Assembly: GCA_002304425.1 (NCBI GenBank)
Contig: NEUY01000007.1
Span: 1-34,945, forward strand
Direction of reading: 5' to 3'
Length of the DNA: 34,945 bases
DNA from: Opitutia bacterium Tous-C10FEB
GTDB lineage: Bacteria > Verrucomicrobiota > Verrucomicrobiia > Opitutales > Opitutaceae
In this document: piece after piece, positions 5,751 to 34,526 of the stretch
How the letters are laid out: each line of letters starts with the position of its first letter
How positions within the stretch are numbered: the first letter of the stretch is position 1
The notes under the pieces: generated by a model
The model's input: only the letters and a program-made list of their open reading frames with translations
Told to the model about the DNA's origin: nothing
Databases searched by the model: none
Program-made: the position numbers and the translations under genes

Positions 5751-5757
5751 TTCAGCC

Positions 5758-6660
5758 GTGACTCCCCGCGATCAACTCTTAGCGCTCAATGATGAACTCC
5801 GTCGCCTGAAGGCGAGCGGTCAACGGACGGTGCCCGTGGCGCTGGAGAGTTTAGCCCAGTTGCAAGCCGCGGTTCGGGCCAATCAGGGGGGCGGGGAGAC
5901 CGTCGCCGCGGTTGCGGCGGTGCCGCCGATGGCCGCCGTTGATCGGAGAAATGAGTTACGACCATCTGCTCCGATTGCCCCCGTAAAAATCTTGCAAATG
6001 CCACCACCGATTCAGTTGCCCGCGGGGGATAAGGCCACGCGGTGGACGGCGCTACGTGAACTCATTTTGCATGATCCGGTGGGGCGAGCCCAGCTATCTT
6101 CTGAGGGAAAAATAGTTTTTGGGGTGGGCGATCTTAATGCCTCCATCTTTTTTTGCGCGGAGGCGCCGGGGCCGGAAGAGGCAAGTGCGGGCGAGCCCTT
6201 TGTCGGGCCTTCTGGTCAGTTGCTCACTAAAATGATTCAGGGGATGGGCTTGAAACGGGAGGAGGTCTATCTCAGCTATATCATGAATTGGCGGCCAGCC
6301 GTTCCGGCCGGCGCCAGTCTTGGTGCCACCGATAATCGGACGCCGACGACCGAAGAACTGCATTACGGTCTGCCCTATTTAAGAGCCCAGCTCGAGATTG
6401 TGCAGCCTCGGATGATTGTGGCTCTGGGCAAAACGGCCGCGGGTGGCTTATTGGGCGCTAGCAGTTTTAAAACTTTGGGCGAAGTTAAAGGACGCTGGCA
6501 TGAATTCGCCGGCATTCCGGTGATGGTCACGTATCATCCGTCCTATATTTTGCGCGACAATAGCAAGCGGTCAAAACGGGCCATCTGGGAAGATTTTCTG
6601 CAGGTGATGGAGCGGGCGAGTTTGCCCGTCTCAGCCAAAGTTAAGGCATATTATCTCTAG
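5758..6660 (+). CDS. Uracil-DNA glycosylase, family 4/5-like, without Fe-S cysteines
   Basis: Removes uracil from DNA to start base-excision repair. The catalytic domain spans about 95-285. Motif A is AEAPGPEE (134-141), followed by GEPFVGPSGQLL; the middle has NRTPTTEEL and VALGKTAA; motif B is YHPSYILRD (259-267). Family 4 enzymes normally hold a 4Fe-4S cluster through four cysteines. Here the protein contains a single Cys (Cys133). The usual CxxC site near residues 105-108 reads HDPV, and the usual Cys before RPP is Trp178 (NWRPAVP). The first 90 residues are an Ala/Pro-rich extension of unknown role. The GTG at 5758 is used because it is the first in-frame start after the ribE stop. The superfamily assignment is secure; the exact family is not. 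Confidence 0.85.
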   Translation: MTPRDQLLALNDELRRLKASGQRTVPVALESLAQLQAAVRANQGGGETVAAVAAVPPMAAVDRRNELRPSAPIAPVKILQMPPPIQLPAGDKATRWTALRELILHDPVGRAQLSSEGKIVFGVGDLNASIFFCAEAPGPEEASAGEPFVGPSGQLLTKMIQGMGLKREEVYLSYIMNWRPAVPAGASLGATDNRTPTTEELHYGLPYLRAQLEIVQPRMIVALGKTAAGGLLGASSFKTLGEVKGRWHEFAGIPVMVTYHPSYILRDNSKRSKRAIWEDFLQVMERASLPVSAKVKAYYL

Positions 6661-16152: not shown

Positions 16153-18897
16153 TCAGGGCTGCGGGGCAAACATCGGATCGGCGGGATTGCCGCCGGAAAG
16201 AATATAAGCGAGCAGGTCTTTCAGCTCATCGGGATTGAGGGCGTTGATGAGCCCGGGTGGCATCATCGAAACGGGGTAAGGTTTGCGTTCGATGATCTTG
16301 GCGATTTCCACGCCCATGGCCTCATCAGGCGCAAACGGATTAGTCATTACTTTAATCCAGCCATCCTCTTCGCCGAGCACGCGACCGACGATGGAGTTGC
16401 CCTCGGGCATGGTGAATTCCTCGCTACCGTATTGATCGCTGATCACGAGGGAAGGCTCGATGATGTTTTCCAGCAAATCACGCACGCTGTAGCGCCGGCC
16501 GGCGTCGGAAATATCGGGGGCAATGCCGATGCCTTCACCGTTGAAGCGATGGCAAGCCGTGCACGCGGTGGCGGTAAACATGGCTTTGCCTTGGGCAAAA
16601 TCACGGCCGGTGAGCTTCGCGGGAAAGAGTGGCAGCGTGTCTTTCAGGGTGTAGGCCCGACCGGGACCACGCGGAATTACTGCTCCCGTGACGATCGCAT
16701 GCACGGGGGCATTGGAAAGTTCATCGAGCGCGGTGCGTTCGGCTAGGTCAGGAACTTTGGCGAGAGATTCATTTCGAATATTTTTTAAAAATCCAGTGAA
16801 GCTGGCGCCTCCCATCCAATGATGGGTACGGGGGAACCAGGAGAAAAATTTTCTGCGCAGTTCCGGGGTCCAGCCGACCGTGGCGTTGCGCAGAGTGTAG
16901 GCGATAGCGATTTGCTGCCGATCCGGTCGGCTGGCGGCTACATTGGCTACGGTCTGGCCGTAACCATCGTTACGTGCGAGGAGCGCGTGACTCGCGAGTT
17001 CTTCGGCGGAGGTTCCGCGGGGTTCTGCTACGGTGAGAAGGGGAACTGCTCGTTCCACGATCGTCGGTGAATCAAGATAAACTAGGAGCGCCAAAAGTTC
17101 GCGGTTGAGCAAGGCGTCGGATTGCGGAAAAAGTGGATCCAGTTTTTTTAAGAGGCGGGCGCAAGTGACGGCCTCCGGTTTTCCCATACGGGTGAACGCG
17201 AGTTGCCAAGCGCGCAGGAGGCGAAAGCGGAACTCGGTGGGTTGCTGGACGAAGTCGAATTTAATGAGAGCGTCGATCAGCCGTGCCTGATAGGAACGTT
17301 CGCCAACCCGGGCGAGGGCGGTTAGAGCCTCGAGGGCGGTTGAGGGATTTTTTTCCTGTAAAGCGCGCTTCGCCCAATTTTGCGGGAGTTGCCGCTCCAG
17401 GGCGGCGCGGGCGGCGAAACGAACAAAACGATCGGAATGCCCAAGGTGTGGCCAAATGGTATCGATGGCCTCTGGACCAACTCCCTCAACATGCAGCGCT
17501 TCGAGCGAATGGCGAAGTATCGCTTCTGGAGTGGGCGCTGGCGGTGCAGCGGGCTGGGTGCTGTCCGTGCCTATGTAGGTCACGCGATAAAGCGCCGATT
17601 GGGTCTTCCGGCCGCCAACGATGAAATAGAGCGCGCCGTCATGAGGGTTAACGACGAGATCAGTCAGGGGAAGAGGTTTGCCGGAAATGAATTCTTCCTT
17701 GGTTCCGCGAAAGGTGGCGCCATCAGGCGCGAGGTGGATGGCGTACAAAGTGCCGTAGGTCCAGTCGCAGGCGAAGAGGGCCGTTTGATAAGTGGCAGGG
17801 AATTTTGCGCCCGTGCCAAAGACGGTGCCCGTGGGGCAACCTGGACCGATATCGAGGGATGCCGGTAAGCTGTCGCTATAGTAGGCCGGCCAGCGACCGG
17901 CACCACTGCGCCAGCCGTAATCACCGGCGTCCACCACGTGATTGATTCGGGTGGGCATATACCACGGCGCACCTTGATCCCATTCCATGTCGGAATCGTA
18001 AGTGAAGAGCTCACCATTTTGGTCGAAGGACAGATCGAACTGGTTGCGAAAGCCGAGCGCAAAAAGCTCCACCGATTTACCCTCGGGATCAGTCCGGCCG
18101 ATATAACCGCCCGGCGCATATTTATTTTTGGCATGGCCGCGGGCATCCCACATGCGGGGCAGGAGTTGGTCTTCATCCCAGCGGACCGCGCGAGATTTTT
18201 CCATATTCACGGGTAAGTCGGTGTGGTTGCCGTTGGCGAAGTAGATAGATTTTCCATCCGGCGACAGCGCGAGTGAATGCGGGCCATGTTCGCCGCCTCC
18301 TTTCATCGTGCGGAGATACTTCAGTTCATCAAATTGATCGTCGCCGTTCGTGTCGCGCAGTCGCCACAGGCCGCGTTTATTGGGAGCCTCACCGACCATG
18401 ACGTAGAGACTGTCAAAAGCGTAAAGTAGGCCATGCGCTCCGACGGCGGGCGTACCTCCCTCTGCATCCTGCATGCGCTTCGGAGTCGTCTCCGAATCAG
18501 TTGTCAGCGGGACGGCCGGTAAGGCAATTTTGAGCCGTTCCACCTGAGTGCTCATCGCCGTGTTAATCGGCGGCAAGCTGATCCGGTAGAGGCTACCGTA
18601 TTGGTCGGCCGTGAGGAGCCGGCCTTGGGGATCCAGGGCGATACTGACCCAAGAGCCTTGTTCTGCTTTAGGCACACTGTAGAGCAAGTCCACCTTGAAG
18701 CCTGGCGCCACTTGCAAGGCGGCGGGAGTACTGGCCTCAGGTAGATCGCTCGGTTTTGCGTTGGGGATTGGTTCAGCGGAGAGCGTCAGCGCGGCGCAAC
18801 TGAGCAGAAACCAAGTCCGCGACAGGGCGGCGGCCGCGGTAAGGCTTGGGTGGGTGGGGGAAAAGCAGGCTGATCGAAATGCTGCAGAAGTGATCAT
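16153..18897 (-). CDS. PVC-type secreted dehydrogenase: propeller, HEAT, cytochrome c
   Basis: A 914-residue exported protein (hydrophobic LSRTWFLLSCAALTLSA, then a predicted cleavage before EP). A six-bladed propeller spans about 50-440 (LRDTNGDDQFDELKYL, RNQFDLSFDQNGELFTYDSD, PHDGALYFIVGG), HEAT-like repeats about 455-730, and a c-type cytochrome domain about 765-905 with CTACH at 779-783 and a probable axial Met in VSMMPPGL. It lacks the N-terminal SGNH module and the C-terminal beta domain of the 1440-residue paralogue. The start ATG lies in the ATGA overlap (18894-18897) with the stop of the cupredoxin fusion gene, so the two are probably made in fixed ratio. I infer a carbohydrate dehydrogenase coupled to haem electron transfer; the substrate is unknown. 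Confidence 0.88.
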   Translation of the reverse strand: MITSAAFRSACFSPTHPSLTAAAALSRTWFLLSCAALTLSAEPIPNAKPSDLPEASTPAALQVAPGFKVDLLYSVPKAEQGSWVSIALDPQGRLLTADQYGSLYRISLPPINTAMSTQVERLKIALPAVPLTTDSETTPKRMQDAEGGTPAVGAHGLLYAFDSLYVMVGEAPNKRGLWRLRDTNGDDQFDELKYLRTMKGGGEHGPHSLALSPDGKSIYFANGNHTDLPVNMEKSRAVRWDEDQLLPRMWDARGHAKNKYAPGGYIGRTDPEGKSVELFALGFRNQFDLSFDQNGELFTYDSDMEWDQGAPWYMPTRINHVVDAGDYGWRSGAGRWPAYYSDSLPASLDIGPGCPTGTVFGTGAKFPATYQTALFACDWTYGTLYAIHLAPDGATFRGTKEEFISGKPLPLTDLVVNPHDGALYFIVGGRKTQSALYRVTYIGTDSTQPAAPPAPTPEAILRHSLEALHVEGVGPEAIDTIWPHLGHSDRFVRFAARAALERQLPQNWAKRALQEKNPSTALEALTALARVGERSYQARLIDALIKFDFVQQPTEFRFRLLRAWQLAFTRMGKPEAVTCARLLKKLDPLFPQSDALLNRELLALLVYLDSPTIVERAVPLLTVAEPRGTSAEELASHALLARNDGYGQTVANVAASRPDRQQIAIAYTLRNATVGWTPELRRKFFSWFPRTHHWMGGASFTGFLKNIRNESLAKVPDLAERTALDELSNAPVHAIVTGAVIPRGPGRAYTLKDTLPLFPAKLTGRDFAQGKAMFTATACTACHRFNGEGIGIAPDISDAGRRYSVRDLLENIIEPSLVISDQYGSEEFTMPEGNSIVGRVLGEEDGWIKVMTNPFAPDEAMGVEIAKIIERKPYPVSMMPPGLINALNPDELKDLLAYILSGGNPADPMFAPQP

Positions 18898-21800
18898 GGG
18901 GCGAGGCGCGAGTTGCCGGATGTGCTCGCCAGCGCTTGATTAATGCGGGGATCGCAAAGTTCGATCGTTGTCACCAACGGCTGTTTGGGCGGCAAGGGGT
19001 TATCCTTGAGATAGGCGGAAACATTTTTAGTTACAACCAATTGGCCATACATCATCGCCCAATGGCCGGGAAAGGTGCAGACGAATTCGTAGATTCCTTC
19101 GCTCGTTAACTCCGAAATTTTAAGCGTCGCCAGTTGATCCGTCTCGAGGATTTTGGTGGCCGCGATTACGTCGGAGGAATTGGGAACGTAGGCTCGGCCA
19201 TTCCAATCCAGTTGCTCTGGCAGTAGCGTCATCGCCGCTAGCCCGACGCGTTCGCGGGTGCCGGGTTTAACCACGACTAGATTATGGGGAAGGCCATCAA
19301 TATTTTCGAAAATGATTTCGAACGGTTTCCCTGCTTCAACGACGAGGCGCGCGGTATCGAAACGCATCTCTTCGGGCACGGTGGTGACAGTGAAAACTGC
19401 CACGCGCAAGCCGGCCAGGGTGGCGCGGAGCGTTTCGGCTTCAGCCGCTGGCAGGGTTCCCAGCAGATCATCGGCGACTTGCACAGTTTCGCTATAGTCG
19501 CGCCGCAAGTGGCCGAAAATGTCGCGCTCGGTGCGTTCGCTCGGGTGGGTGTTCGCTGCCCACGCTACGAGGATGCGGGCGGTGGCGGCGGCGCTGTCCG
19601 CCGGCCAACTAGCGCGGGGGAGGACGCGGAGACCTTGGGCCGCCGCGGGGATTTGGTCGCCGCGTGCAATCAGGTCGGCAAGTGCGTTGAACACCGCCGT
19701 GGGTTCGCGCCGAGTGCTGACCGCCGTTCGAATCGCCTCGCGTTGGATCGCCGCGACCGTGGCGGGCGGACCTGGAAGATCAGCCACTTTGGTCGCTAAG
19801 ATTGGCATCACGATTTCATAGGCGGTCGCGCGAAGGGCGGCATCGGGGATTAAGGATAGTCCACCGAGGAAACTGGCCTCGGTCAGTGGAGATTTGAGGG
19901 CTTCCGTCCAAAGAGCCGTGAGCGAACCGTCCGCGATGGCCAGTGCGGCCCAAGCGAAGGAGCGACCCTCCGCGTTATCGGTCAGGGCCAATTTATGAAT
20001 GGCCGGGCGTTGGGCGCGGAGGTCAGCGGCCGGTTGAGCGAGGAGGAGGCGGCCGACGCTTTTAACATCGATCTCGGCTGGTGAATCAATGGTGGTGAGC
20101 AGCAATGCCACGCGATCGACCTGACGAGCCGCGGCCACGGCGGCCAGAGCTTCGGCGCGCACGGTATCGTTGATCCCCTTACGGCCTAAGATATTTTCCT
20201 GCACGTCGACGGTGCGCGGTAATTTAAGGAGCTCGGCTACGGCCAAGGTGCGGAGCAGGTAACGAAAGCTAGCCGGATCACCGCCGGCGATGGCGGTACC
20301 CTCGCTGATGCTCTTGGCCCATAAAGGCCGCAGTTGGCGGAGCGTTTCGCCGATGGTGTAATCGAGATAATAATCGATGGGTAATTTAGTCGCGGCGAGG
20401 GCGATTTCGGTGGCGCCAGTCTCGGAGAAAAAGCTAGCGGCCCGAACCGCGTGCAGCCGCACGCGAGCATTTTCATCGGTGGCTTTGCTTTGGAGTAACG
20501 TGAGCGCGGTGGGCAAGCGGTCGCGCCAGTAGCCGAGCACACGAACGGCCGCGGCCCGAGCATCGGCGTTGGGGGAATTTAAGACGCGTTGGAGCAGATC
20601 CTCATCCACGACATTGTGCCACTGGTGGAGCCAGAGCGCTTCGGTGAGGTGATGGGCGTAGTCCGGAGTCGTGGGATCAAGTGCAGCGAGCCAAACTTTT
20701 GCCGCCGCGATAACTTTCGCGGTGTCGTGCCGGCCAAGTTCAATTTTAGCTAAGTTGCGGATTTGATTCTCGGGGCGCTCGAGCAGTTTCAGCAATGCCG
20801 GGATGGGTTGACCAGCTATGGCGGGCGGAGTGGCCAGCGGGCGACCTTCGTAAGTGAGACGATAGATGCGGCCGTGGCTGTGGTCACGGTTGGAGTCGCG
20901 CAGGTGGCTCTGGAGATGGCCGATCAGAGGCGTGCACCAATCGATAACGTAGATCGCGCCATCGGGGCCCACGGAGGTATCGATCGGTCGAAAATCTCGA
21001 TCGGTCGAGGACATGAGATCGGGTTGACGTTCGCCTTTGATCCCCGCGCCGTCGTCGACGAGTTTTAGCCGATAGATACCCTGAAAACCGATGACATTGG
21101 GATTGAGATAATTCCCCCAATACTCCGGCGGGAAATGCGTGCTAGTGATGATGCTACTCCCAGCCGAAGGCCGAGAAGGCCGGTCCCAGATCGTTTTTAA
21201 TTTGGGATGTTTTTTCGGATAATCGATCTTCCCGCTGATGGCGGCGCCGAAATAAGTGTGGTTGCCGGTGGCGTCGGTGATAAAATCATTGCCCCAATAG
21301 TCGAAGGCGCGGCCGTGTGGGTTCATGAAATTATATGAGGCGTAAGTCTCGAATTTCCCGGTGCGCGGCTCAAAGCGGTAGATGGCTCCGTCGATGTTGC
21401 GCACGGGTCCGAGGGCGGTCTCGATCTGCGAACGGTGGAAGACGCCGTCGCTTAAGAGAATCGCCCCACCGGGTTCGTAAACGAACGAGTTGGCCGTGTG
21501 GTGGGAGTCGGCGGAGTCGAGGCCCATCAGGACGCGCTCCTTGGTGTCCGCTTTGCCGTCCCCATCTGTATCGCGGGCAAACCAGAGATCCGGCGCCTGC
21601 ATTACGAGGAGGCCATCTTTGTAAAATTGAAACCCCGTCGGACAATTTAAGTTGTCGAGAAAATGAATGCATTTATCTGCGCGACCATCGTGGTCGGTAT
21701 CTTCGAGGATGATAATACTGTCCCCGAGCGTAGACGTTGGCGTGCGTTCAGGATAATTAGGCCAGACTGAGACCCAAAGCCGGCCTTGCGGGTCCCACGC

Positions 21801-23975
21801 CATTTGCACCGCATTAGCTAATTCTGGGAATTCTTTTTCGCTGGCGAAAACATTTACTTTCACGCCGGGCGCCAAAGTCATTTTGGTGAGCGCTTCATCC
21901 GCGCTGAGGAAATCGTAAGTGCCGTCGGGGTTTGGACCGGGTTTATTTGTACCAAAAGGCGTGACTGGCGGCAGTGGGATCACTTCCGGTGGAGTGGTTT
22001 CACCCCGCGCCAGCGCCCAAAGCTGGCGATCGCGATTTGCCGTCAGCACATCGCGTTGCGCCATTTCTTCCTGCATAATCTGATTATTAGTCAGCTTAGG
22101 TTTATCCTTCGCGGATTCATAGGCCAATTTGGAGCGATCACCGTAAACATTGAATCCATCCATCGTCCGATAGCGCGCATGCCACTCTTGATTTTTAGCC
22201 GTCACCGCAGTTTGGAGCGCGGTAAAATTACCAACGGGAGCGGACTCACCGAAGAGGGTTTTAAAAATCACGGGCGCCAGTGCCGCGTCCCCCGCGGCGG
22301 TCAGGTGGAGGCCGTTAAAAGTCAGCGCTCGACCTTGCGCCGCCGCTTCCGCGTAAAGTTTCTGCGAGGGCGCAAAGAGATCGATGAATGTCACGCCCGC
22401 TCGATCGCGCGCGACCTCCGCCATGGCGGCCGCATAAAGCGCGAGGTTACGATTGTTGTCCGCGGGAATCGCGTAATTGCGATCGGATAAATTTTCGTTG
22501 GCGATCGGCGAGAAGAGCACGATGTGGGGGACGCCGTGGGTGCCATAGTTTTTGCTGCGCGTGTCACTCAGAAAAGCGGCCAGATCAGCTTTGAATTTAG
22601 TTAAGCCAGCGGGCCCCGCAAAAGATTCATTGAAGCCAAAAAAAGCAAAAATCACATCGGTGCCCGTGCGGCTGAGCCATTCATCGGGGGTGCCAAAATC
22701 TTTGGACCGGGCGCGGGCGACGATTTCATCTCCGGTGACCGCTAGGTTACGAAAAACCAATTCATGCTTTGGGTACTTGGCATGGATCAACGTCTCGAGG
22801 GCGCCCGCGTGCTGCATGCGATCAGCGAGACCGTTACCAATAAAGGCAATGCGGGCCCCTAGGTTGAGCGTGATTGGGGTATTGATGGCGTTCGGGGTCC
22901 CTGGGGGTGGCGCCGAGGGAACCGTGCCGCCCGCAGGCAAAATTTTACCCAAGGCGTGATCAGCGGGAGTGAGACCCGTGCGATATCCAGCAAAACCGTA
23001 AGGGCGCGGGGCGTAGTTATCAAAGGGGGTGACGTCGGCTTTGGCGGGTACCGCCAGTTCCGCGGCCCAGTAGGTAGCATTAACAATCAGCCGCCGGAGC
23101 GACTCTTGTTCAAAATCAGTGGCGGCCCCGAGTGTGGTGGTGAAGATTTTAGCGGATGCCCCGCTGCTCGTTAAATAATTTCGCGTCCAGACGATGGGCA
23201 TCGCGGGGGCGTTGACGGCTTGTTCGATTTTAGCGGCGGTTGTTTTGCGGTAAGTCGCGGGAGCGTCGGTGGGCCGCATCCCTTGCAGCACGAGTCCCCG
23301 CGCAAGAATTTTGGCGTCAGCCGGTGGGGCGGCCTCATAGACATCGGTCGTGCCGAATAGATCGGTCACACTATTAAACAATGCATCGGTGGTAGCCGCG
23401 GGTTCGAGGACACCCCGCGTGGCTTCAACTTTATGTTTCCCCCAATGCGCGACCCAAGTTTCGCCTAGCACTTGGCGGCCGAAGCCGCCCGGATGGGTGG
23501 TTTTATTATTCCAAGTATAATTGGACCACGGACTGCCGGCCGGAAAATTAAAGGCGTGGGTGGAGGTGCGGAGCGCAATAATGGGGACGCCCCGGCGGTG
23601 CGCGGCATCGAAATGCTTCATTGCCTCATCCGGCCAGGCGCGGAAGCGCAGGGACATAATGATCACATCAGCCGTATCGAGGGCATCGGCGCCGGGCAGT
23701 GATTGCACCTGAGTGGGGTTGATGGTGCCGTCCGCATCGAGGGCGAAGAGCACCGTGGTCTTGAAGCCGTGGCGTTGGCTCAGGATTTTAGCCAACATGG
23801 GCAGCGCTTCTTCGCTGCGATATTCTTCATCGCCGGACAAGAGCACGACGTGTTTGCCCTTCGCGGGGGCACTGCGGGCTGGCTCTAGCTCGAGCCGCGT
23901 GTTGTCAACGGCACCCAGCACCACCGCGGTTAGGAAAGGGAGCAAGAGACGCATCGAACGGTGTAGATTGATCAT
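18894..23975 (-). CDS. Giant ThuA/SGNH-like/propeller/HEAT protein with C-terminal cupredoxin
   Basis: A 1693-residue exported protein (signal MRLLLPFLTAVVLGAV). Domains: a ThuA-like region, about 40-320 (KHVVLLSGDEEYRSEEALP); an SGNH-like module, about 370-575, with GNG and NGLHL replacing GDS and DGxH; a PVC dehydrogenase propeller, about 698-1048 (DTDHDGRADKCIHF, RDTDGDGKADTKERVL); HEAT-like repeats, about 1055-1500; and a blue-copper (cupredoxin) domain, about 1530-1650. The type 1 copper ligands are all present: His1564 (GLPHNLVVV), then Cys1633, His1638 and Met1642 in VCTFPGHWAMMYG. There is no CxxCH haem site, unlike its two paralogues. ATGA overlaps join it to both neighbours. I infer sugar oxidation with electrons passed to copper; the role of ThuA may be keto-trehalose-like chemistry, by family analogy. 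Confidence 0.86.
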   Translation of the reverse strand: MINLHRSMRLLLPFLTAVVLGAVDNTRLELEPARSAPAKGKHVVLLSGDEEYRSEEALPMLAKILSQRHGFKTTVLFALDADGTINPTQVQSLPGADALDTADVIIMSLRFRAWPDEAMKHFDAAHRRGVPIIALRTSTHAFNFPAGSPWSNYTWNNKTTHPGGFGRQVLGETWVAHWGKHKVEATRGVLEPAATTDALFNSVTDLFGTTDVYEAAPPADAKILARGLVLQGMRPTDAPATYRKTTAAKIEQAVNAPAMPIVWTRNYLTSSGASAKIFTTTLGAATDFEQESLRRLIVNATYWAAELAVPAKADVTPFDNYAPRPYGFAGYRTGLTPADHALGKILPAGGTVPSAPPPGTPNAINTPITLNLGARIAFIGNGLADRMQHAGALETLIHAKYPKHELVFRNLAVTGDEIVARARSKDFGTPDEWLSRTGTDVIFAFFGFNESFAGPAGLTKFKADLAAFLSDTRSKNYGTHGVPHIVLFSPIANENLSDRNYAIPADNNRNLALYAAAMAEVARDRAGVTFIDLFAPSQKLYAEAAAQGRALTFNGLHLTAAGDAALAPVIFKTLFGESAPVGNFTALQTAVTAKNQEWHARYRTMDGFNVYGDRSKLAYESAKDKPKLTNNQIMQEEMAQRDVLTANRDRQLWALARGETTPPEVIPLPPVTPFGTNKPGPNPDGTYDFLSADEALTKMTLAPGVKVNVFASEKEFPELANAVQMAWDPQGRLWVSVWPNYPERTPTSTLGDSIIILEDTDHDGRADKCIHFLDNLNCPTGFQFYKDGLLVMQAPDLWFARDTDGDGKADTKERVLMGLDSADSHHTANSFVYEPGGAILLSDGVFHRSQIETALGPVRNIDGAIYRFEPRTGKFETYASYNFMNPHGRAFDYWGNDFITDATGNHTYFGAAISGKIDYPKKHPKLKTIWDRPSRPSAGSSIITSTHFPPEYWGNYLNPNVIGFQGIYRLKLVDDGAGIKGERQPDLMSSTDRDFRPIDTSVGPDGAIYVIDWCTPLIGHLQSHLRDSNRDHSHGRIYRLTYEGRPLATPPAIAGQPIPALLKLLERPENQIRNLAKIELGRHDTAKVIAAAKVWLAALDPTTPDYAHHLTEALWLHQWHNVVDEDLLQRVLNSPNADARAAAVRVLGYWRDRLPTALTLLQSKATDENARVRLHAVRAASFFSETGATEIALAATKLPIDYYLDYTIGETLRQLRPLWAKSISEGTAIAGGDPASFRYLLRTLAVAELLKLPRTVDVQENILGRKGINDTVRAEALAAVAAARQVDRVALLLTTIDSPAEIDVKSVGRLLLAQPAADLRAQRPAIHKLALTDNAEGRSFAWAALAIADGSLTALWTEALKSPLTEASFLGGLSLIPDAALRATAYEIVMPILATKVADLPGPPATVAAIQREAIRTAVSTRREPTAVFNALADLIARGDQIPAAAQGLRVLPRASWPADSAAATARILVAWAANTHPSERTERDIFGHLRRDYSETVQVADDLLGTLPAAEAETLRATLAGLRVAVFTVTTVPEEMRFDTARLVVEAGKPFEIIFENIDGLPHNLVVVKPGTRERVGLAAMTLLPEQLDWNGRAYVPNSSDVIAATKILETDQLATLKISELTSEGIYEFVCTFPGHWAMMYGQLVVTKNVSAYLKDNPLPPKQPLVTTIELCDPRINQALASTSGNSRLAP

Positions 23976-24829
23976 GGGCGGTAGCCGGCGGCGGCAATTT
24001 CACGACGGAGAAAAGTGTGGCCAGATTCGGCGATGTCCCAAGCCGGCGAGTACTCGCGCCAGACGTTGATCGCGTTGGCAAAGGCTGGATCGGAACGACT
24101 AAAGGCTTCGATCGCCATCCAGCCGTCGTAGCCGACTTCGCGCAGGGCGATGAGATTTTCGCGGAAATTAATATGTCCAGAGCCAGGGGTGCCGCGGTCA
24201 TTTTCGCTGAGGTGAACATGCTTGAGCACCGGCGCGATGGTACGAATCGCGTCAGGGAAAGTTTTTTCCTCCATGTTGGCGTGGTGCGTATCATACATCC
24301 CGCGCACGTTGGGATGATCGGTTAGTTCAACTAACATGCGCAGTTGGGCCATGGTATTGCACAGATAACACTCAAACCGGTTGAGTGCCTCCGGGCAGAG
24401 CGTGACGCCGGCCTGCTTAGCGTAGTCGCCAGCGGCGCGCAGGGTGTCTGCGCTGCGCTGGTATTCATCAGGGTGAATATCGGTCCGCGTGAACGTTGCA
24501 AAGGCTGAGTGAAATGGCCCGCACAGTAGGCTGGACCCGCAATCCACGGTGCGGTCGATATTCCATTTCAGTAAATCGAGGCCTTTGCCGCGAATCGCGG
24601 CGTCGGGGCTGGCGGGATTAGCGTCGGCTCCGAGGATGGTGACGCATGTCACGCCGAGGTTGAGATCCGTGAGCAATTTTTTCAGCCGCTTGTACGCGGC
24701 GGGATCTTGTTGGCCGTTGCAGATCTCGATGCCGTCATAGCCGATTTTTTTAAGACGTTCGATGTGCGGAAAAAACTCGTCGGAGATCGAGGCAGTCCAA
24801 GCGAGAAGATTGAAGCTGAGTTTAGGCAT
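23972..24829 (-). CDS. Sugar isomerase/epimerase, D-tagatose 3-epimerase type
   Basis: A 285-residue TIM barrel without a signal peptide, so cytoplasmic. The four metal-binding residues of the D-tagatose/L-ribulose 3-epimerase group are present with matching spacing: Glu147 (CPEALNRFE), Asp180 (MYDTHHANMEE), His206 (KHVHLSEN) and Glu241 (WMAIEAFSR). The usual reference quartet is E152/D185/H211/E246, a constant offset of five. A TTG five codons upstream is possible, but the ATG at 24827-24829 gives the canonical MPKLSFNLL start. The stop overlaps the start of the cupredoxin fusion gene (ATGA). Probably isomerises or epimerises the (keto-)sugar released by the extracytoplasmic enzymes; hydroxypyruvate isomerase is a less likely alternative. 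Confidence 0.85.
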   Translation of the reverse strand: MPKLSFNLLAWTASISDEFFPHIERLKKIGYDGIEICNGQQDPAAYKRLKKLLTDLNLGVTCVTILGADANPASPDAAIRGKGLDLLKWNIDRTVDCGSSLLCGPFHSAFATFTRTDIHPDEYQRSADTLRAAGDYAKQAGVTLCPEALNRFECYLCNTMAQLRMLVELTDHPNVRGMYDTHHANMEEKTFPDAIRTIAPVLKHVHLSENDRGTPGSGHINFRENLIALREVGYDGWMAIEAFSRSDPAFANAINVWREYSPAWDIAESGHTFLRREIAAAGYRP

Positions 24830-24876
24830 GGGAGTTAAGGGCAATGGTAAGCGAGTGAGCGAGGCAGAGGGGGGCA

Positions 24877-24936: not shown

Positions 24937-26076
24937 TTAGGCTTTTTTTACATTGGTCCAGCGACCGGAGGCGGCTGATTTAAGGACGGCATCAGTGACG
25001 TAGTCGGTGGCGAGACCATCGCGGAAGGTAGGGGCCGCTGGCCGGCCCGACTCGATACCCTGAAGGAAATCGGCGACTTGGTGCACGAAGCTGTGCTCGT
25101 AGCCAATCGCGAGACCCGGCACCCACCAATTTTTCATGTAAGGCTGATCTCCGTCGGTGACGTGAATGCTCCGCCAGCCGCGGGTGAGTCCACCGTCCTT
25201 ATGATCAAACCATTGGAGGCGGTGCAAATCATGGAGGTCCCAGAAAATGGAACCGTTCTCGCCATTGATCTCGAACGTGTAGAGCGCCTTGTGACCGCGC
25301 GCATAGCGGGTGGACTCAAACGTGGCGAGGGAGCCGTTGCTGAAGCGCGCTAAAAAAGCGGAGGCATCGTCGATGAGGACTTTTTGCTTTTTGCCAGTGA
25401 GCGAGTGGTGGCGCTCTTTGACGAAGGTCTCCGTCATGGCGGTGACGGAATCGATCCCGCCGTTGAGCCACAGGGCGGTATCAATACAGTGCGCCAGCAG
25501 ATCACCGGTGACGCCGCTGCCGGCGATGGAGGCGTCGAGGCGCCAAGTGCCGGGTCCGCCTTGGGGAACGTCGGCATTGATCGTCCAATCTTGCAGAAAT
25601 TTGGCGCGGTAGTGGAAAATTTTCCCCAGGCGGCCTTCATCGATCAGTTGTTTGGCCAGCGTGACGGCCGGAATTCGGCGATAGTTATACCAGACCATGT
25701 TAGCAATTTTAGCCTTCTCGACGGCCTTGGTCATGGCGAGTGCCTCGGCGGGATTCATGGCCAGAGGCTTTTCACACAGAATCATCTTGCCCGCTTTAGC
25801 CGCGGCGACCGCGATCTCGTAGTGGACGTTGTTAGGGGCGGCGATGTCGATGAGGTCGATATCTTTGCGCGCGATGAGGGCGCGCCAGTCGGTTTCCACG
25901 GACTCGTAGCCCCAGTTGGCGGCAAACTCGGCGGCTTTGACGCCATCGCGGCCGCACACGGCTTTGAGGACCGGTTGAATTTTTCCGGGAAAGAAATTAC
26001 GAACTTTGCGGAAGGCGTTGGAGTGCGCGCGACCCATAAAGCCGTAGCCGATCAGACCAATGTTGAGTGATTTCAT
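24937..26076 (-). CDS. Gfo/Idh/MocA-family sugar oxidoreductase
   Basis: A 379-residue NAD(P)-dependent oxidoreductase of the glucose-fructose oxidoreductase/inositol dehydrogenase family. The Rossmann motif is [12 protein letters not shown] near the N-terminus, the family EKPLAMN motif (catalytic Lys region) follows, and [14 protein letters not shown] lies in the C-terminal substrate domain. The frame extends 29 codons further upstream, but the ATG at 26074-26076 starts directly with the Rossmann strand ([15 protein letters not shown]) and is preferred. There is no signal peptide, so it acts in the cytoplasm, in contrast to secreted Gfo/Idh proteins of some glycan loci. Likely interconverts hydroxyl and keto forms of a sugar acid or inositol-like compound; the substrate is unknown. 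The leader is CTTCTCCTCTT. Confidence 0.88.
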
Positions 26077-26204
26077 AAGAGGAGAAGTAAAAGAACCGTG
26101 AGTTGAGATTAAATAAAACGAGCGCCGTGGGGGAGGGGAATTAGTCTGAAGCCGGCTAACCACACCGGGTAGTTAGCGAGCGCTTATTCCTGCCCCCGCT
26201 GGCC

Positions 26205-27242
26205 TTAGCCGACCCAGCCGTGATTTTTCCGCACCTCGATCATCGCGGCGAGAATGTCATTCCACGTCTGCTGCTTCAGCATCACTTCATTGGGGAACAT
26301 GCAACCATCCCAGCAGAGGTGTTTAATTTTCTTGGTTACTTTACCTTGGGCGTCGCGGAGCCAATAGCCGGAGTCGCGTGGGATATTTAATTTACCCTTG
26401 GGATCGGTCGCGAGGCAGTGGCGGCCGGTCTTTTCGTGGGAACCTGAGCCAAAAACGGTGCCATCGTTCTGCGCGACGTGAAAATCGATTGTCCAGGGAC
26501 GCAAAGCCGCGGTGAGCTTGACCATCGCCTTGTGAAATTCGGCCGGTTCCCAGTGGAAATTTTTCGGCACGATGCGGTGGGCTTCAGCATTCTCGCCCAG
26601 GGTGTAGAGTAGGGTGTGCGACATATCGGCTTGGAAGCCGACAATTTTTGGCATGTTCACCGCCTCGAGGAGATTCACCATGTTCTTCCAGCTATGCATG
26701 CCACCCCAGCAAATCTCGCCTTCGGCCGCCAAGCGCTCGCCGGCGTCTTTGGCAATTTTGCCCGCTTCACGAAATGATTGCGCGATGAGTTTGGTAACGC
26801 CCTTAGGATCGGCATCCCACGTCTTGACGCTGGTCGCGCTGTCGATGCGCACGATGCCATAAGGCCGCACACCGAGTTCGCGCAGTTTTTGCGCAATGCG
26901 AATCGCTTTGCGGACATGACTAACCCAATTCCCGCGGGCGGTGGCGTCACCACCCGCGGCGGCGTCGAACCATACGGGGGCGACGACAGAGCCGACGACT
27001 AATCCCTTGGCCTTGATTTTAGCGGCGAGGGCTTTGATGCCATCGTCTGAAATATCGATGTCCGTGTGCGGATTATAGAGAAAGAGATCAATGCCGTCGA
27101 ATTTCACCCCGCCGACTTCCGCTTGGGCCGTAAGCTCAAGCATCGTGTCGAGGGAGATGAACGGTTCTGCGCCAGGGCTGCCTTTGCCGACGAGGCCGGG
27201 CCAAGCTGCGTTGTGGAGTTTGGGGAAGTTATTGTCAGACAT
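26205..27242 (-). CDS. TIM-barrel sugar isomerase-like protein
   Basis: A 345-residue member of the xylose isomerase-like TIM-barrel superfamily, cytoplasmic (no signal). Visible barrel features are [41 protein letters not shown] (probable metal-ligand Glu), [13 protein letters not shown] (Asp/His) and [12 protein letters not shown] (His). It is distinct in sequence from the shorter epimerase at 23972. The frame is open 21 codons upstream of the chosen ATG (27240-27242), but that stretch would come within 38 bases of the cupin gene stop and is not family-like. It lies between the cupin isomerase and the Gfo/Idh gene in one operon. The specific substrate cannot be named. Confidence 0.78.
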
Positions 27243-27279
27243 CGGTAATGGGGGGTTGAGGTGAAGATAAGGGGAGAGA

Positions 27280-28551
27280 TCAGAATTTGTTCTGGCGATA
27301 GGCACCCATTTTAGGCGCGGTGGGATTTACTTCCGGACCGAAGTAGCGCAGGCAAACCAGCGGTTCGGTGCTACTGGTGTTTTCAAAAGTGACGCCCGCC
27401 TTGGCGCCGTCTTCGGTACAGAAATATTCATCCTCGGTGAGTTCGTGGAAGCGAATCAACTTGGGGCTCACGAGAGGTTCGCCGTTAATTTTGCCTGAAC
27501 CCTGCACACAGATGAGTCCATAGGCGCCGGTATCTTTGACGGTGCACTTGGTGCCCGGGTCGATTGTGATTTCCTTGGCCGTGAAGCGCTGCTCGCCGTT
27601 AACTTTGCCGTAAACGATCCAGCGATCCACGTAACCCTCGCGGCGGGTGTCAGCGACCGGGACCGGTTCGAGGTAGTGGTTGTCCTTGAAGTTGGGGTCG
27701 ACGTTTTTATCCCAATCGAGCTGATCGACAATGTAATCGATGTCTTGGTGTTTGGCTTTGGGGACATCTTTGACGAGCAGAGACCAAGGGACCTCGCGGC
27801 CCTCGACGAGATTTTGATACATGCCAAACACATCGCTGCCCCATTGCGGTTCGTAGGTGCAGAGCGAGCCAGGCGCGTGGAGAATGCAGGGATCGATCAG
27901 CCAGCCCGTGCCCGGCTTTAGGCGATAGGCTTTGGAGAGATCGAGAATGCCGTTGTCGCCTTGGTTCCATTTGGCGATGCAGGCCCGTACCTGCGCTTTG
28001 GTGGTGCCGGGCTCGAGGCCCATGAAGGTGTAGGGGAAATTGTTGCCTACGTTATTGTGCTGCGGGGGGAAATAATAGGACTCGGGCTTGCCCTCTTGGC
28101 CGACGAGTTTTGCCTGCGCGGCATTCTGGTGCATGTGGTGCGGAATGGGCCCCATGTTGTCGAAAAATTTCGAGTAGACGGGCCATTTGCTGTATTTTTT
28201 CCAAATGGCTTTGCCCACGAGGGTCGCGCCCGTGTCGGCGACGGCTTGGGCGAGGGTGAGGCGTTCTTTGCCAATCACCACGTAGCTGAGCCCCTCGTCA
28301 GCGGCCCGGCCTTCATTGGCGGTTACGGTGGTGGACGCAAACCAGCGCTCATCGATCCCTCCTCGATTGAGTCCGTAGGCGTAGGTGTCGTCTGGATGAA
28401 GTTTAATCCGCAATCCCGGTTGCAGGAAAGAGCGGGGCACCCAAGCGGGGGCCAACCGGAGTAAGCCGCCAGTGCGGGAGATCTCGGCTTCGACGAGGCT
28501 CTGCGTTGATTTTTTGACGATCTTCAGATCGAGGACGGAGGGAATAGCCAT
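27280..28551 (-). CDS. Type I phosphomannose isomerase-like cupin protein
   Basis: A 423-residue cytoplasmic protein resembling class I mannose-6-phosphate isomerases (cupin fold). Candidate metal ligands are in the right order: [10 protein letters not shown] (His138/139 and His141, replacing the usual QVHPDD region), KPESYYF (Glu157) and PCILHAPG (His225). A second beta-barrel ([15 protein letters not shown]) fills the C-terminal third. The sequence is divergent from ManA proper, so the substrate may be an unphosphorylated or unusual sugar rather than mannose 6-phosphate. It is the first gene of the cluster after the regulator and has a 269-base upstream gap with a direct repeat. The ATG is preceded by TTCCTCCT, the opposite of a Shine-Dalgarno. 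Confidence 0.75.
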
Positions 28552-28820: not shown

Positions 28821-29585
28821 TTATCCGGTGGTATGGCTGGCGTAGCGGAGCCGATAGGCCCGTGGGGTTTCTCCCATGAGGCGGCCAAATTCTTTGGTGA
28901 AGTGACTTTGATCGGCAAAGCCCGACTCGGCGGCGATTTCTGCTAGCAACTTCCGCGTGAAAACAAGGGCGCTACAGCTCATGCGTACACGGAGGTTACG
29001 TACATAATGATGCGGGGATACATGATAGGTGGCCTGAAATTGACGTTCAAAAACCCGCAGGGAGAGGCCGCAAATTTTGGCTAATCGGCTATTGGTAATC
29101 GATTCGCTGTAATTTTGACTAACAAACCGAATGGCCGCACTCAGCGGGGAGTCACCGGGAGACACCGGGGCCCGTTCGTCGATCGGTCGCGTGACCCCGG
29201 CCGTCCCGACGATGCGCCCTTGGGCATTATAGAGGGGGATTTTCGAGGTGATGCACCAGCGCGCGGTGTGATTGAAGCGGCCGATCAGTTCCACGCGGGA
29301 GAGAATGCGTTCACCTTGGAGCACGCGCTCGTCGTCCACGCGATACTGGTTAGCCATGACCGGTCCGCAAAAATCAAAATCAGTGCAGCCAATGATATCA
29401 GCGCGGCTGGCGACGCCAAAATTAAGCAGAAAGGCCATGTTGACCCATTGGTAGTGGCCCTCGGCGTCTTTCACCCATACCAGCAAATTTTCGACGTAAT
29501 CTAACAGCTCGATAATCTCGGGTGGTTTAGCCCCGATCCGGCGGAGTGAGGCTAGGAGATGGGGATCGGCTGATGGCGTTTTCAT
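28821..29585 (-). CDS. AraC-family transcriptional regulator with PAS sensor domain
   Basis: A 254-residue cytoplasmic regulator. Residues about 25-133 form a PAS domain (LVWVKDAEGHYQWVN, IIGCTDFDF, ARWCITSKIPLYNAQGRIVGTAGVTRP). Residues about 148-250 form the AraC double helix-turn-helix (SRLAKICGLSLRVFERQF; LAEIAAESGFADQSHFTKEF). The frame is open ten codons upstream, but the ATG at 29583-29585 overlaps the stop of the mutarotase-like gene as ATGA and is preferred. Transcribed toward the sugar locus, it probably activates that locus. The PAS ligand or redox signal is unknown. Confidence 0.9.
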   Translation of the reverse strand: MKTPSADPHLLASLRRIGAKPPEIIELLDYVENLLVWVKDAEGHYQWVNMAFLLNFGVASRADIIGCTDFDFCGPVMANQYRVDDERVLQGERILSRVELIGRFNHTARWCITSKIPLYNAQGRIVGTAGVTRPIDERAPVSPGDSPLSAAIRFVSQNYSESITNSRLAKICGLSLRVFERQFQATYHVSPHHYVRNLRVRMSCSALVFTRKLLAEIAAESGFADQSHFTKEFGRLMGETPRAYRLRYASHTTG

Positions 29586-30742
29586 GACGCCATAGCCGCC
29601 GTCGACGTGAGCCATGCTAGGTCAAGTGCGGTGTGCGTTTGCCGGCCATTAGCCGCGACCAGGTCAACGCCATCGCCGCGGGCGGTAATCGAGGCCACGC
29701 GATCGAAGCTTTTTGGAATCACGGCCATGGCCATGATGGTGCTGATCGAGGTGGGACGCTGCGCGTGTAATTTCAGCGTGGTCGGAATTCCCCGGCGATT
29801 GAGCGAATTAGGTCGGGCAGATTCGGCGAGCCCCAGATGGAAATAACCGGTGATATCCTCTAAGCCCATGACATCCGTATGTCGACCGTTCCAAGGGGCA
29901 TAATGCCGGCCGCCGTTGGAGATCCACATGACCGTGTGCCGCAGTACCCGTGGATCACGCAGGGCAAACCAAACATAGCCTTCAGCGGGGAAAGTTACGG
30001 CCGTCCAAGCGAAGGGAAGTTTCGCGTCCGCCGTCAACAGGGCGAGATCCTCATAACCGCGGCGGGCAGGATAAAGACTGAGATCAGCCTGACCGCCATC
30101 GAGCCGCGGCACGCGCTGCAAGGAACGAAACACCGCGCCCGGCTTCAGGCTTTGATAGCCGCCATTTTCTGGTAATTCGAACGGCTCGGGTAGGACTTGG
30201 CCGCGGATGAAACGACTCGTGCTGATGACCCCGCTGCCGGGTGAGGCGGGAAATTTTAGCGTAGCGTGATGACCGACATTCATGGGCCCGGTCATGCCAG
30301 TGAGAATATGCCGCGAGTAGATCGCGGTGTGGCCATCAATAAGGCTGATGAATTTATCCACGCGCCCCTTTCGCACCGTAGTGGCGAGGCTGGTCTGCAG
30401 AGTAACTCGGGCGCCGGAGCGCGTGAGCGACGCTGGCCGCCAGGTAGCGTTAGCCGTCTCGCCATGCGGCGGGTGTTGTTCGCCGCGCCAAGCGGTGGCG
30501 TTACCACCGAACGGGCAACAGAAAAAATCACCCCGCAAGGCGCGGAGGATGGCCGGTGATCCCGCGGCGAGGGGTTCCTCGGCCCAAGGGGCGACGGCAT
30601 AAGGCTGGACGATTTTCCGGCCTAACTGGAATTGCACGGGGCCGAGGTGGCCGCCTAATTTGGTTAGCCAGCCCTTAACCAAGCTCGATTTAATCGGCCA
30701 AGAAGGTTGGCCCTGGATGGTCGTCAGCGACAGGAAAGACAT
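29582..30742 (-). CDS. Hypothetical protein, possibly galactose mutarotase-like fold
   Basis: A 386-residue protein with no signal peptide and no cysteine-rich or membrane segment. I do not recognise a named family with certainty. The pattern HPPHGETANATW followed by repeated beta-strand stretches (ATLKFPASPGSGVIS, PFAWTAVTFPAEGYVWFAL, HTVMWISNGGRHYAPWNG) recalls aldose-1-epimerase-like beta-sandwich proteins, in which HG-x-x-x-x-x-W is common. It overlaps the AraC regulator by ATGA, so it may provide or remove the sugar signal of that regulator. This is inference from layout. The upstream region carries an epimerase-gene remnant rather than a clear promoter. Confidence 0.7.
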   Translation of the reverse strand: MSFLSLTTIQGQPSWPIKSSLVKGWLTKLGGHLGPVQFQLGRKIVQPYAVAPWAEEPLAAGSPAILRALRGDFFCCPFGGNATAWRGEQHPPHGETANATWRPASLTRSGARVTLQTSLATTVRKGRVDKFISLIDGHTAIYSRHILTGMTGPMNVGHHATLKFPASPGSGVISTSRFIRGQVLPEPFELPENGGYQSLKPGAVFRSLQRVPRLDGGQADLSLYPARRGYEDLALLTADAKLPFAWTAVTFPAEGYVWFALRDPRVLRHTVMWISNGGRHYAPWNGRHTDVMGLEDITGYFHLGLAESARPNSLNRRGIPTTLKLHAQRPTSISTIMAMAVIPKSFDRVASITARGDGVDLVAANGRQTHTALDLAWLTSTAAMAS

Positions 30743-32285: not shown

Positions 32286-34526
32286 TTAGCTCCAGCGTAG
32301 ATCGCTGCGCGACAGGGGCATTTGGCGAATGCGTTTGCCGGTGGCGGCGAAGATGGCGTTGCAAATCGCTGGTGCGACCGGCGGTAAAGCCGGCTCACCG
32401 AGACCAGTGGTCGGGTAATTCGTCGAGAGGAAGTAGGTTTCCACTTTAGCGGGGGCCTCAGTGATGCGCATTAGCGGATAATCGTTAAAATTCCCCTGCA
32501 CGACGCGGCCACGTTCAATATTAATCTCCTGGCTCTTCAATGCGCAGAGACCGTCGAGCACGGAGCCTTCGACTTGATTCTCAGCGCCACTGAGGTTGAC
32601 CACTTGGGCACCGATGTCGCCGCCGGTGACAAAGCGGTCCACCTTGAGCTCGCCATCTTTGGTGACGGTGACCTCGGCGACTTGGGCAAAGTAGCCGAGG
32701 TGGCTGAAGTGAAAAGCCAGACCTGCGCCTGAGCCCTTGGCGAACTGCTTTTTGCCCCAACCAGCTTTCTCGGCCGCGAATTTAAGGACGTTACGCATGC
32801 GAGCGACGTTGTAAGGCCGACTGACTTGCTTGCCTTTGCCGCCTCCGCTGTTGCTGGCTGGCATTTCATCTTTATCGCCGAGGATTTCGAGCCTGAGTTC
32901 GAGCGGATCGCGCCCGCCGGCGTGGGCAAGTTCGTCGATGAAACTGTGAAAGACCCAAGAAAAAACGCAGCTACCGGGAGCGCGCCACGGACCCATGGGC
33001 CAGCCGGTGTCAAACATGGTTTGCTCGGCTTGGTAATTAGCGATCCAGCGGCCGGGAAACTCATCGGCGCTGAGATTGCCGCCGCTGCCGGGGCTACCGC
33101 CCTCGCCAAAGGTGAAAAAGTGGTTTTTCCATGCGACGATTTTTCCTTGGGCGTCGATCCCACCTTTTAGAAAGTGTAAACCGCCCGGGCGATATTGATC
33201 GTGTCGCATGTCGTCTTCGCGTGACCAAGTGAGTTTCACCGGTGCGTTAACCTTTTGGGCGATCGCAGCGGCCTCGATGAGGTAGTCCGCGCCGATCCGG
33301 CGACCGAAACCGCCGCCGGCGCGGTTAAGATGGAGGATGATCTTTTCAGGTGGGATGCCGAGGATCCGATTGACCATGCCGGTGCCGATGGACGGAATCT
33401 GGGTCGGGGACCAGATTTCCATCACGCCGTCTTTCCAGTGGGCGGTGGTATTTTGCGGCTCGAGGTTGGCGTGAGAAATGAACGGATAAACATAATTTGC
33501 TTCGACGATTTTGGCGGCTCCGCGTAGGGCGGCATCGGGGTCGCCATCTTTGCGGAGAACACGTTCACCGGGTTGGCCGGCTCTTTCTTTGGCCTGTTGA
33601 ACGAACCCATCCCAGCTCTCGTTTACAACTTTGCCCTCGTCCCAGACGATTTTCAGCTGTTTGCGGGCGGTCATCGCGGCCCAAGTCGAGTCGGCAATAA
33701 TGGCAACCCCGGGAACCAATTCTTTCAGTTTGCCGTTGCCCCCTAAAATAAAAGCGTCCCTGACGCCGGGAAGGGTCTTAATCTGGTCGAGGTTGGCGCT
33801 AACTACTTTGCCGCCAAAGGCCGGGCATTTTTCGTAAATGGCATAGAGCAGGCCCGGCAATTTGACATCGATACCAAACAGCGGTTTGCCGGTGACAATC
33901 GAGGGGGTGTCGTACTGCGGAACGCGCGTGCCCAGCAATTTGTAATCCTTGGGCTGCTTCAAAACTACGGCTGACTTATCTGGTACGGGCAACGTGGCCG
34001 CGGTGGCTGCAAGGTGACCATACGACAGCTTTTTGCCGGATGCGGTGTGGATTACCGTGGCGTTTTCGGCGCGGCATTCGCTTGCCGGGACACCCCAAGT
34101 CTGAGCGGCGGCTTGGACTAGCATCGTGCGCGCGGTGGCGCCGACGAGGTGGAAATTGTCGTAATTATTGGGCGTCGAGTTACTGCCGCCAGCTCCTTGA
34201 TTGCCGAATTTAGCGAGGTCGAAGTCTCCTTGCTCAATGGTAATATCATTGAACGGCACCTCGAGTTGCTCGGCGATGATCATCGGGAGCGAGGTTTTTA
34301 CGCCCTGGCCCATTTCGGGTTGTTTGGAGATAATAGTTATCTTCCCCGCGCCGGTAATGCGGACGAAGGCGTTGGGCGTGAAATCAGCTGAGGCCGAGGT
34401 GGCGGCGGCGACAGCGTCGCTGCCGGAGCGGATGTAAAATGCGAGGGCGAAGCCGCCGCTCGCGAGGCCCGTAAGTTTGATAAAGTTGCGGCGATCAACG
34501 GCGCGGGAGAGCAGGGATGCGTTCAT
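32286..34526 (-). CDS. Molybdopterin-binding subunit of xanthine dehydrogenase-family hydroxylase
   Basis: A 746-residue large subunit of the IorB type (isoquinoline 1-oxidoreductase-like aldehyde or N-heterocycle oxidoreductases). The ATG at 34524-34526 gives a twin-arginine signal ([20 protein letters not shown], Arg12-Arg13), so the folded Mo-enzyme is exported. A longer frame upstream is rejected because this ATG overlaps the small-subunit stop as ATGA. Cofactor-site motifs include [52 protein letters not shown] and the C-terminal [19 protein letters not shown] with the probable catalytic Glu. The partner is the 2Fe-2S subunit next to it. The substrate is unknown (aldehyde or N-heterocycle by family). 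Confidence 0.92.

Follow-up and report, generated by a model that had tools for sequence, protein, structure and literature searches.

We analysed a 34,945-nucleotide stretch of DNA from Opitutia bacterium Tous-C10FEB (contig NEUY01000007.1, positions 1 to 34,945), here called the window, and in it the gene for P0001, a 1693-residue protein composed of ThuA, SGNH-like, β-propeller, HEAT-repeat and cupredoxin modules. P0001 is a new copper-ended form of a known but poorly characterised family, the PVC-type heme-binding CxxCH proteins (TIGR02604/TIGR02603; DUF7133), with which it has the propeller family and the HEAT repeats in common and from which it differs in that a cupredoxin replaces the haem domain. 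The most interesting result is that copper and haem ends are interchangeable: the scaffold carries copper, haem, or both at the same position, and neither the copper-ended nor the haem-ended proteins group into a single clade. We propose that P0001 is exported and represents the copper-ended type within a modular family of PVC propeller proteins that act on glycosides or keto-sugars. Our best reading, to which we give a probability of about 0.45, is that of an exported sugar-oxidising unit in which a copper relay would hand electrons to a c-type cytochrome.

P0001 is encoded on the minus strand at 18894..23975, with an ATG start. Judged from its sequence, the tail of the protein (residues ~1525-1650; 19026..19403, minus strand) is an azurin/auracyanin-like cupredoxin with a complete type 1 ligand set for a predicted copper. 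Residues H1564 (19284..19286), C1633 (19077..19079), H1638 (19062..19064) and the axial M1642 (19050..19052), all on the minus strand, align with the matching residues of auracyanin A and azurin, and the ligand loop has the azurin spacing C-x4-H-x3-M. A first set of homologues comprised 30 rows, one of which (L021) ends before the copper site; all four ligands are kept in the 29 rows that reach it, 28 of them homologues and one the window's own. We then turned to 80 loci kept from a collection scan (L031-L110), which are the basis of the locus counts given below and exclude the window. They hold 77 cupredoxin regions, with the first histidine kept in 77 of 77; three regions end before the C-terminal loop, and the four ligands are kept in each of the 74 that reach it. 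By fold comparison of the model, the domain superposes on auracyanin (6kol) with a Z score of 18.8 and a root-mean-square deviation (rmsd) of 1.5, covering 118 of 125 residues. The model blocks holding the ligands have a mean predicted local distance difference test score (pLDDT) of 90-91, and together with the auracyanin and azurin match this predicts that the four ligands converge. A preliminary description, made from the letters of the window, had placed the same protein here without stating its strand and had named the same four ligands as a complete type 1 site; both claims stand, and structure prediction agrees with the second. The fold and ligands are those of azurin and auracyanin, but in P0001 they form the C-terminal domain of a giant protein. 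Against the NCBIfam azurin model TIGR02695 the domain scores 37.5 bits, under the cut-off of 105.1, and is thus not azurin proper. A proline precedes the first histidine ligand, at the position of Gly45 in azurin.

Sister proteins were said earlier to carry a CxxCH cytochrome at the corresponding end, and two neighbours of P0001, P0002 and P0003, indeed match TIGR02603 over its cut-off. To these we added 40 further homologous regions, which were read for their terminal modules. The ThuA-SGNH-propeller-HEAT scaffold ends in CxxCH in L155, L157, L158, L160, L161, L173, L178 and L184, and in copper in L172, L177 and L185. Both ends occur together in one 1719-residue open reading frame (ORF) of L170, copper first and CxxCH behind it, as recognised by Pfam Copper-bind and Cytochrom_C; by motif, a second L170 ORF likewise has the two in one chain. 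A split form also exists, in which an ORF of 632-759 residues combines HEAT-like, cupredoxin and CxxCH parts; it was found in at least 9 of 286 sampled genomes of the class. This ORF adjoins an SGNH-propeller-HEAT ORF in five of the nine (L127, L130, L131, L132 and L133), and for L125 and L128 a scaffold ORF was found elsewhere in the genome, on a separate contig (L126 and L129, respectively); no scaffold ORF was present within the fetched stretch of L134 or L135. Loci L075 and L079 are also of the split copper-plus-haem form.

To place these ends on a phylogeny, we computed a quick maximum-likelihood tree from the SGNH and propeller columns, with the tail excluded. The input of 162 ORFs was reduced to 156 by skipping 6 that covered fewer than 450 query residues, to 53 by a 72% identity filter, and to 49 rows by dropping three cut at contig ends and one with a frame break. 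Ends were labelled by motif, with Pfam applied to 6 of the end-labelled proteins and three rows labelled from an adjacent ORF without joining sequence. The haem label requires 4 changes on the tree, all 4 of them forced by starred branches. For the copper label the number is 8 (7 forced) if four rows with unassigned tails count as not-copper, which inflates the figure; with the unassigned rows excluded, copper, haem, and both together need 7 changes. Haem-ended L154 and L162, from one genome, lie within a copper clade beside copper-ended L022 (starred), and haem-ended L163 shares a starred group with three copper-ended rows and one that has both ends. A tree with all haem rows in one clade was rejected by the approximately unbiased test (p-AU 9.2e-8), as was a tree with the copper rows apart from the haem rows (p-AU 2.7e-64). 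The labels are nonetheless much more clustered than in shuffles, none of 500 being as low for copper or for haem, and exchange has thus been repeated but not frequent. Because the tree is quick and unrooted, has three long branches and carries ends named by motif, it does not fix the direction of the exchanges. To treat copper as a fixed alternative to haem, as was done earlier, was too strong, given that the same scaffold ends in either or both; the pattern rather suggests that a family of possible sugar-processing enzymes can be fitted with one electron outlet or another.

These data also bear on the idea that the copper domain serves copper storage, sensing or adhesion, its fusion to the scaffold having no role in electron transfer. 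Azurin-like domains have varied roles, and we found no functional data for copper-ended members in the literature searched. Retention of all four ligands wherever the loop is reached (74/74), and the exchange with, or fusion to, c-type cytochromes, point instead to electron transfer, and we regard a storage, sensing or adhesive function as very unlikely.

The remaining modules of P0001, all on the minus strand, were assigned by profile searches and by fold comparison of two AlphaFold2 models, one of residues 640-1693 (pLDDT 81.7) and one of residues 23-660 (pLDDT 80.4). All five modules proposed earlier are supported by Pfam or NCBIfam, by fold comparison, or by both, and four of them (ThuA, SGNH, propeller and cupredoxin) match solved folds. 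Pfam detected Lipase_GDSL_2 at residues 394-564 (39.9 bits), DUF7133 at 692-1042, HEAT_2 at 1126-1195 and Copper-bind at 1534-1648, all over the gathering cut-offs. The N-terminus resembles a signal peptide by eye, and we infer, as part of our best reading, that P0001 is probably exported. It is followed by the ThuA-like domain (residues ~38-318; 23022..23864), which scores 24.5 bits with Pfam ThuA, under the gathering cut-off of 33.4, and is backed by fold comparison (4e5v, Z 16.8, rmsd 3.5 over 226; 1t0b, Z 16.6); the relative L170 reaches 40.8 bits with the same profile. The β-propeller (residues ~702-1045; 20841..21872) is like six-bladed enzymes and scores 209.5 bits with the NCBIfam PVC-type family TIGR02604, for which the cut-off is 122.2. 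A motif read found no CxxCH anywhere in the 1693 residues, so the haem domain that goes with TIGR02604 is missing from P0001. Between propeller and cupredoxin lies a HEAT-repeat solenoid (residues ~1058-1522; 19410..20804), recognised by Pfam, by helix pairs in the model and, less strongly, by Foldseek, which matched it to Kap121p and other helical solenoids.

The SGNH-fold domain (residues ~365-577; 22245..22883, minus strand) superposes on 7br2 (Z 20.9) and 4q9a (Z 18.6) but is without the conserved nucleophile serine. In 31 rows, the nucleophile position, 382, is occupied by alanine in 14, glycine in 10, threonine in 5 and serine in 2. In the first, partly overlapping set, serine is found at this position in 3 of 29 rows and at the preceding position, 381, in 8 of 29, so that an active SGNH copy is possible in some relatives. 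Residues R386, Q388 and H389 are kept in all 29 rows of that set, which suggests a site that may bind rather than cut. The module is probably a non-hydrolase, in line with the earlier label of pseudo-SGNH.

Some relatives carry a further domain within the scaffold. In L007 (ORF 1462-5985), Pfam detected an F5/8-type-C, galactose-binding-like domain at residues ~1136-1241, within the HEAT region; for this insertion, Pfam was applied to L007 only. L008-L013, L015, L016 and L018 show a match gap at the same place, suggesting that many copper-ended relatives have an insert that binds carbohydrate. A cytochrome was considered for the L007-like insertion of ~150 residues and rejected, as it has no CxxCH and in L007 matches F5/8 type C.

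As to the chemistry of the propeller, its profile aligned by hhalign with that of the GSDH set, which comprises sugar dehydrogenases dependent on pyrroloquinoline quinone (PQQ), at a probability of 98.5 over 278 columns. This profile-profile comparison was used in place of a search against PDB sequences, which gave no usable sugar dehydrogenase match (best 2ism, E 1.5). The best fold match is likewise a PQQ sugar dehydrogenase, 3a9g (Z 21.8, rmsd 3.0 over 282). In the enzyme of A. calcoaceticus, His144 is reported as the base, with Arg228 and Asn229 at the PQQ ketones (PMC6881810). Residue His826 of P0001 (21498..21500, minus strand) aligns with this catalytic base and Asn885 (21321..21323, minus strand) with the asparagine of the pair; each is kept in 30 of 30 rows, the window included. 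P0001 thus has fold, profile, and the catalytic His and Asn positions in common with the soluble PQQ sugar dehydrogenases (GSDH, PF07995).

The gene lies within a cluster on the minus strand. In the order of transcription, this begins with a PAS-AraC transcriptional regulator (28821..29615) and a 423-aa protein (27280..28551), which is conserved upstream and for which no match was found in Pfam or among PDB sequences. A xylose-isomerase-like TIM barrel, the second in the cluster (TIM2; 26205..27305), and a Gfo/Idh/MocA oxidoreductase with no signal peptide evident by eye (24937..26163) come next. They are followed by P0005, a TIM-barrel protein like ketose 3-epimerases (TIM1; 23972..24844), assigned by Pfam and by structure-database comparison, in which it resembles D-psicose and D-tagatose 3-epimerases and, less so, the 3-keto-D-glucoside 4-epimerase 6wn6. 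Downstream of P0001 are P0002 (16153..18897), a propeller-HEAT-CxxCH protein and candidate haem partner; P0004 (15343..16077), of the DUF1080/3-keto-disaccharide hydrolase family (Pfam, 131.6 bits), with a signal-like N-terminus; and P0003 (10972..15294), an SGNH-propeller-HEAT-CxxCH protein, P0002 and P0003 being assigned by Pfam and NCBIfam. P0001 overlaps P0005 at its start and P0002 at its stop by 4 bases each, suggesting translational coupling. Past the regulator, at 32286-34607 on the minus strand, we noted an aldehyde-oxidase-type, molybdopterin-binding large subunit with a twin-arginine-like start by eye.

We asked how far this arrangement is kept at loci with enough flank. Matches on both strands were counted, wherever they fell in a fetched flank of at most 10 kb. 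ThuA is fused in 35 of the 80 kept loci, mostly Opitutae-titled. Their downstream flank holds DUF1080 in 22 of 25 cases and a P0002-type haem protein in 12 of 25, and their upstream flank holds TIM2 (22/25), Gfo/Idh/MocA (21/25), the 423-aa protein (18/25), AraC (11/25) and TIM1 (8/25). With a cluster conserved in the ThuA-fused relatives and overlaps on both sides of the gene, the term self-contained, applied to P0001 in the preliminary description, was too strong. DUF1080 is moreover fused ahead of a propeller of this kind in L112, L186 and L189 (Pfam) and in L190 (by BLAST alone), which hints at a substrate common to both. The L112 fusion, to a DUF7133 propeller, lies in the window's own genome (contig C51, L112:10490-12685) and is open to the contig end; the same contig carries a further DUF1080-matching ORF (L112:283-1671) and a propeller-CxxCH ORF. 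Near the copper-ended gene of two other loci are large ORFs that by eye are like TonB-dependent receptors (L034:14061-17075 and L070:12620-15445), counterparts of which occur in 7 and 5 of the 80 loci.

In our best reading, the propeller would oxidise a sugar hydroxyl, most likely to give a 3-keto-glycoside, with ThuA and the probably inactive SGNH domain as substrate-handling parts. The HEAT solenoid would place the azurin-like domain as a one-electron relay, and the reduced copper would hand its electrons to a c-type cytochrome, which may be a haem sister such as P0002 or, alternatively, the cytochrome that some relatives carry fused behind their copper domain. Cleavage of the keto-glycoside would fall to DUF1080, and the epimerases and the Gfo/Idh/MocA enzyme would process the keto-sugar in the cytoplasm. 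From the GSDH homology, the kept ligands, the exchanged redox ends, the ThuA-fused cluster, the DUF1080 fusions and the likeness of P0005 to epimerases we infer that the propeller catalyses a redox reaction, that the chemistry is of the 3-keto type and that electrons flow in this direction. A comparable gene set, LacABC plus DUF1080, is described for lactose 3-oxidation in Caulobacter (PMC9007349). There the dehydrogenase is the membrane-bound LacABC, whereas in the P0001 cluster a copper- or haem-bearing propeller would take its part.

Several observations weigh against this sugar-oxidising reading, beginning with the cofactor, as none with redox activity was found for the propeller in the analysis. 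Position 884, equivalent to the arginine of the PQQ site, is alanine in 24 rows, valine in 4, methionine in 1 and leucine in 1, and arginine in 0 of 30; the loop carrying His826 (model residues 183-190) has a pLDDT below 50. By eye, P0002, the haem sister, retains an Arg-Asn pair in the matching stretch, so that in this respect it seems nearer to the canonical site than P0001. Over the cut-offs, pqqC occurs in 19 and pqqE in 17 of the 286 sampled genomes. P0001 is matched at 1e-20 in 90 of these genomes (its own included, and some by the ThuA part only), and among the 90, pqqC and pqqE are found over their cut-offs only in G191, where a single match covers P0001 in its ThuA part. In G196, pqqC is matched at 33.6 bits, below the cut-off, and the profile search of the window's own genome, which is 70% complete, gave neither gene over cut-off. 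None of 14 control genomes matched, so that the within-class matches alone attest to working searches. With PQQ synthesis genes missing from nearly all P0001-matching genomes (89 of 90), self-made PQQ is unlikely, which leaves scavenged PQQ or other chemistry as routes for the propeller.

The first of these routes corresponds to a classic PQQ quinoprotein sugar dehydrogenase, taking PQQ from the environment and passing electrons to copper. The GSDH homology, the retention of His826 and Asn885 and the best fold match, close in Z to others, agree with such an enzyme, and fungi and E. coli are reported to own PQQ enzymes without making PQQ (PMC6881810). The invariable replacement of the arginine of the Arg/Asn pair (30/30) argues against it, as does the finding that, G191 apart, the genomes with pqqC and pqqE are ones that P0001 does not match at 1e-20. 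We consider a classic quinoprotein unlikely.

The strongest rival sees the propeller as a glycoside hydrolase or lyase that carries out no redox reaction itself, its copper or haem domain being a tethered carrier or docking module for another enzyme. The lack of PQQ synthesis genes suits such an enzyme, and the folds of SMP30, lactonases and DFPase match the propeller at near-equal Z (~20, about 1 to 3 below the best PQQ enzyme). Fold alone therefore gives no choice of chemistry; the fold-match list is filled by propeller structures, and a family may fit without appearing in it. E. coli BL21(DE3)pLysS has a lacZ gene of its own. In this host, Lac161_ORF7, a verrucomicrobial TIGR02604-HEAT-CxxCH protein and so a haem-type relative of P0001, was produced; the purified protein, the one purified relative known to us, is reported to release glucose from lactose, with a Km of 1.8 mM and a kcat of 13.2 per s (PMC5342196). 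The printed kcat/Km disagrees with these two values by a factor of ten, and the parts of that article available to us mention no electron acceptor. This hydrolysis counts against sugar oxidation, but the host lacZ product could have contaminated the preparation. Lac161_ORF7 shares with P0001 the TIGR02604 propeller, the HEAT repeats and an origin in Verrucomicrobia; it differs in its haem c end and its reported hydrolase activity, and there is no ThuA, SGNH or cupredoxin among the three domains listed for it (PMC5342196). The hydrolase or lyase is also opposed by the profile match between the propeller and PQQ sugar dehydrogenases, in a comparison that lactonase profiles lay outside, and a redox end that is conserved and repeatedly exchanged suggests that electrons matter to the reaction of the scaffold. 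On balance we rate the hydrolase or lyase as rather improbable.

A last point against sugar oxidation comes from the 45 loci without fused ThuA. Downstream, they show DUF1080 in 0 of 26 and the P0002-type protein in 0 of 26; upstream, a Gfo/Idh/MocA-like protein in 1 of 32, a TIM1-like protein in 2 of 32, and AraC, TIM2 and the 423-aa protein each in 0 of 32. The sugar context is thus not universal among copper-ended proteins. Given the missing arginine, the presence of PQQ genes in 1 of 90 genomes and the hydrolase report on a haem-type relative (PMC5342196), the word oxidoreductase, as used in the preliminary description, is plausible for P0001 but no more than that: homology to PQQ sugar dehydrogenases favours it, and the cofactor evidence does not. 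A bolder version, which we hold to be doubtful, has the propeller oxidising sugar without PQQ, flavin or NAD and passing single electrons to the fused blue copper, with ends exchanged repeatedly and the copper-plus-haem chains as possible intermediates.

Proteins of this kind are not rare, since at least 541 of 587 pattern-matched stretches from the collection scan encode a relative. Verrucomicrobial titles are borne by 79 of the 80 kept loci; the exception, L085, belongs to a Gemmataceae-titled record and holds a ThuA-fused copy (L085:1116-5258) that ends at the contig end and is 48-70% identical to P0001 by module. This copy may reflect transfer or mis-binning. Among the matches listed, the closest locus is L031, with 96% identity in the best segment. 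Of four other sampled genomes from the window's genus, G117 has a weak match and the remaining three have none at 1e-20, so that the gene is patchy near the window. With the C-terminal part as query, 18 of 240 genomes in a phylum sample matched at 1e-8, the own genome included, and several of these were short cupredoxin matches. In the own genome, contig C17 carries a second, shorter propeller-cupredoxin ORF of 677 aa with the copper loop CSFPGHAMVM (L111:3312-5342). Contig C56 carries an azurin-like ORF of 164 aa (L114:874-1365) with a lipoprotein-like start by eye and, in its loop, one extra residue between the second histidine and the axial methionine. A tandem pair of copper-ended scaffold copies occurs at L106:9080-17595.

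In the literature searched (titles and the starts of abstracts, with subscription papers and preprints outside the search), we found no description of a cupredoxin fused to this scaffold, and to that extent the copper-ended form is little described, as had been supposed. Azurin genes have been recorded in Verrucomicrobia (PMC8779525), in an article whose available text does not mention fusions to a propeller scaffold. For the PSCyt genes, which represent related families and not this exact one, nothing is stated to be known of function in the text available (PMC5615132). Copper-, haem- and copper-plus-haem-ended members on one scaffold amount to a natural swap set, with which the redox role of the scaffold is directly testable and which could reveal how metal supply shapes sugar respiration. 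If sugar oxidation without PQQ proves true, the family would represent a new kind of carbohydrate dehydrogenase.

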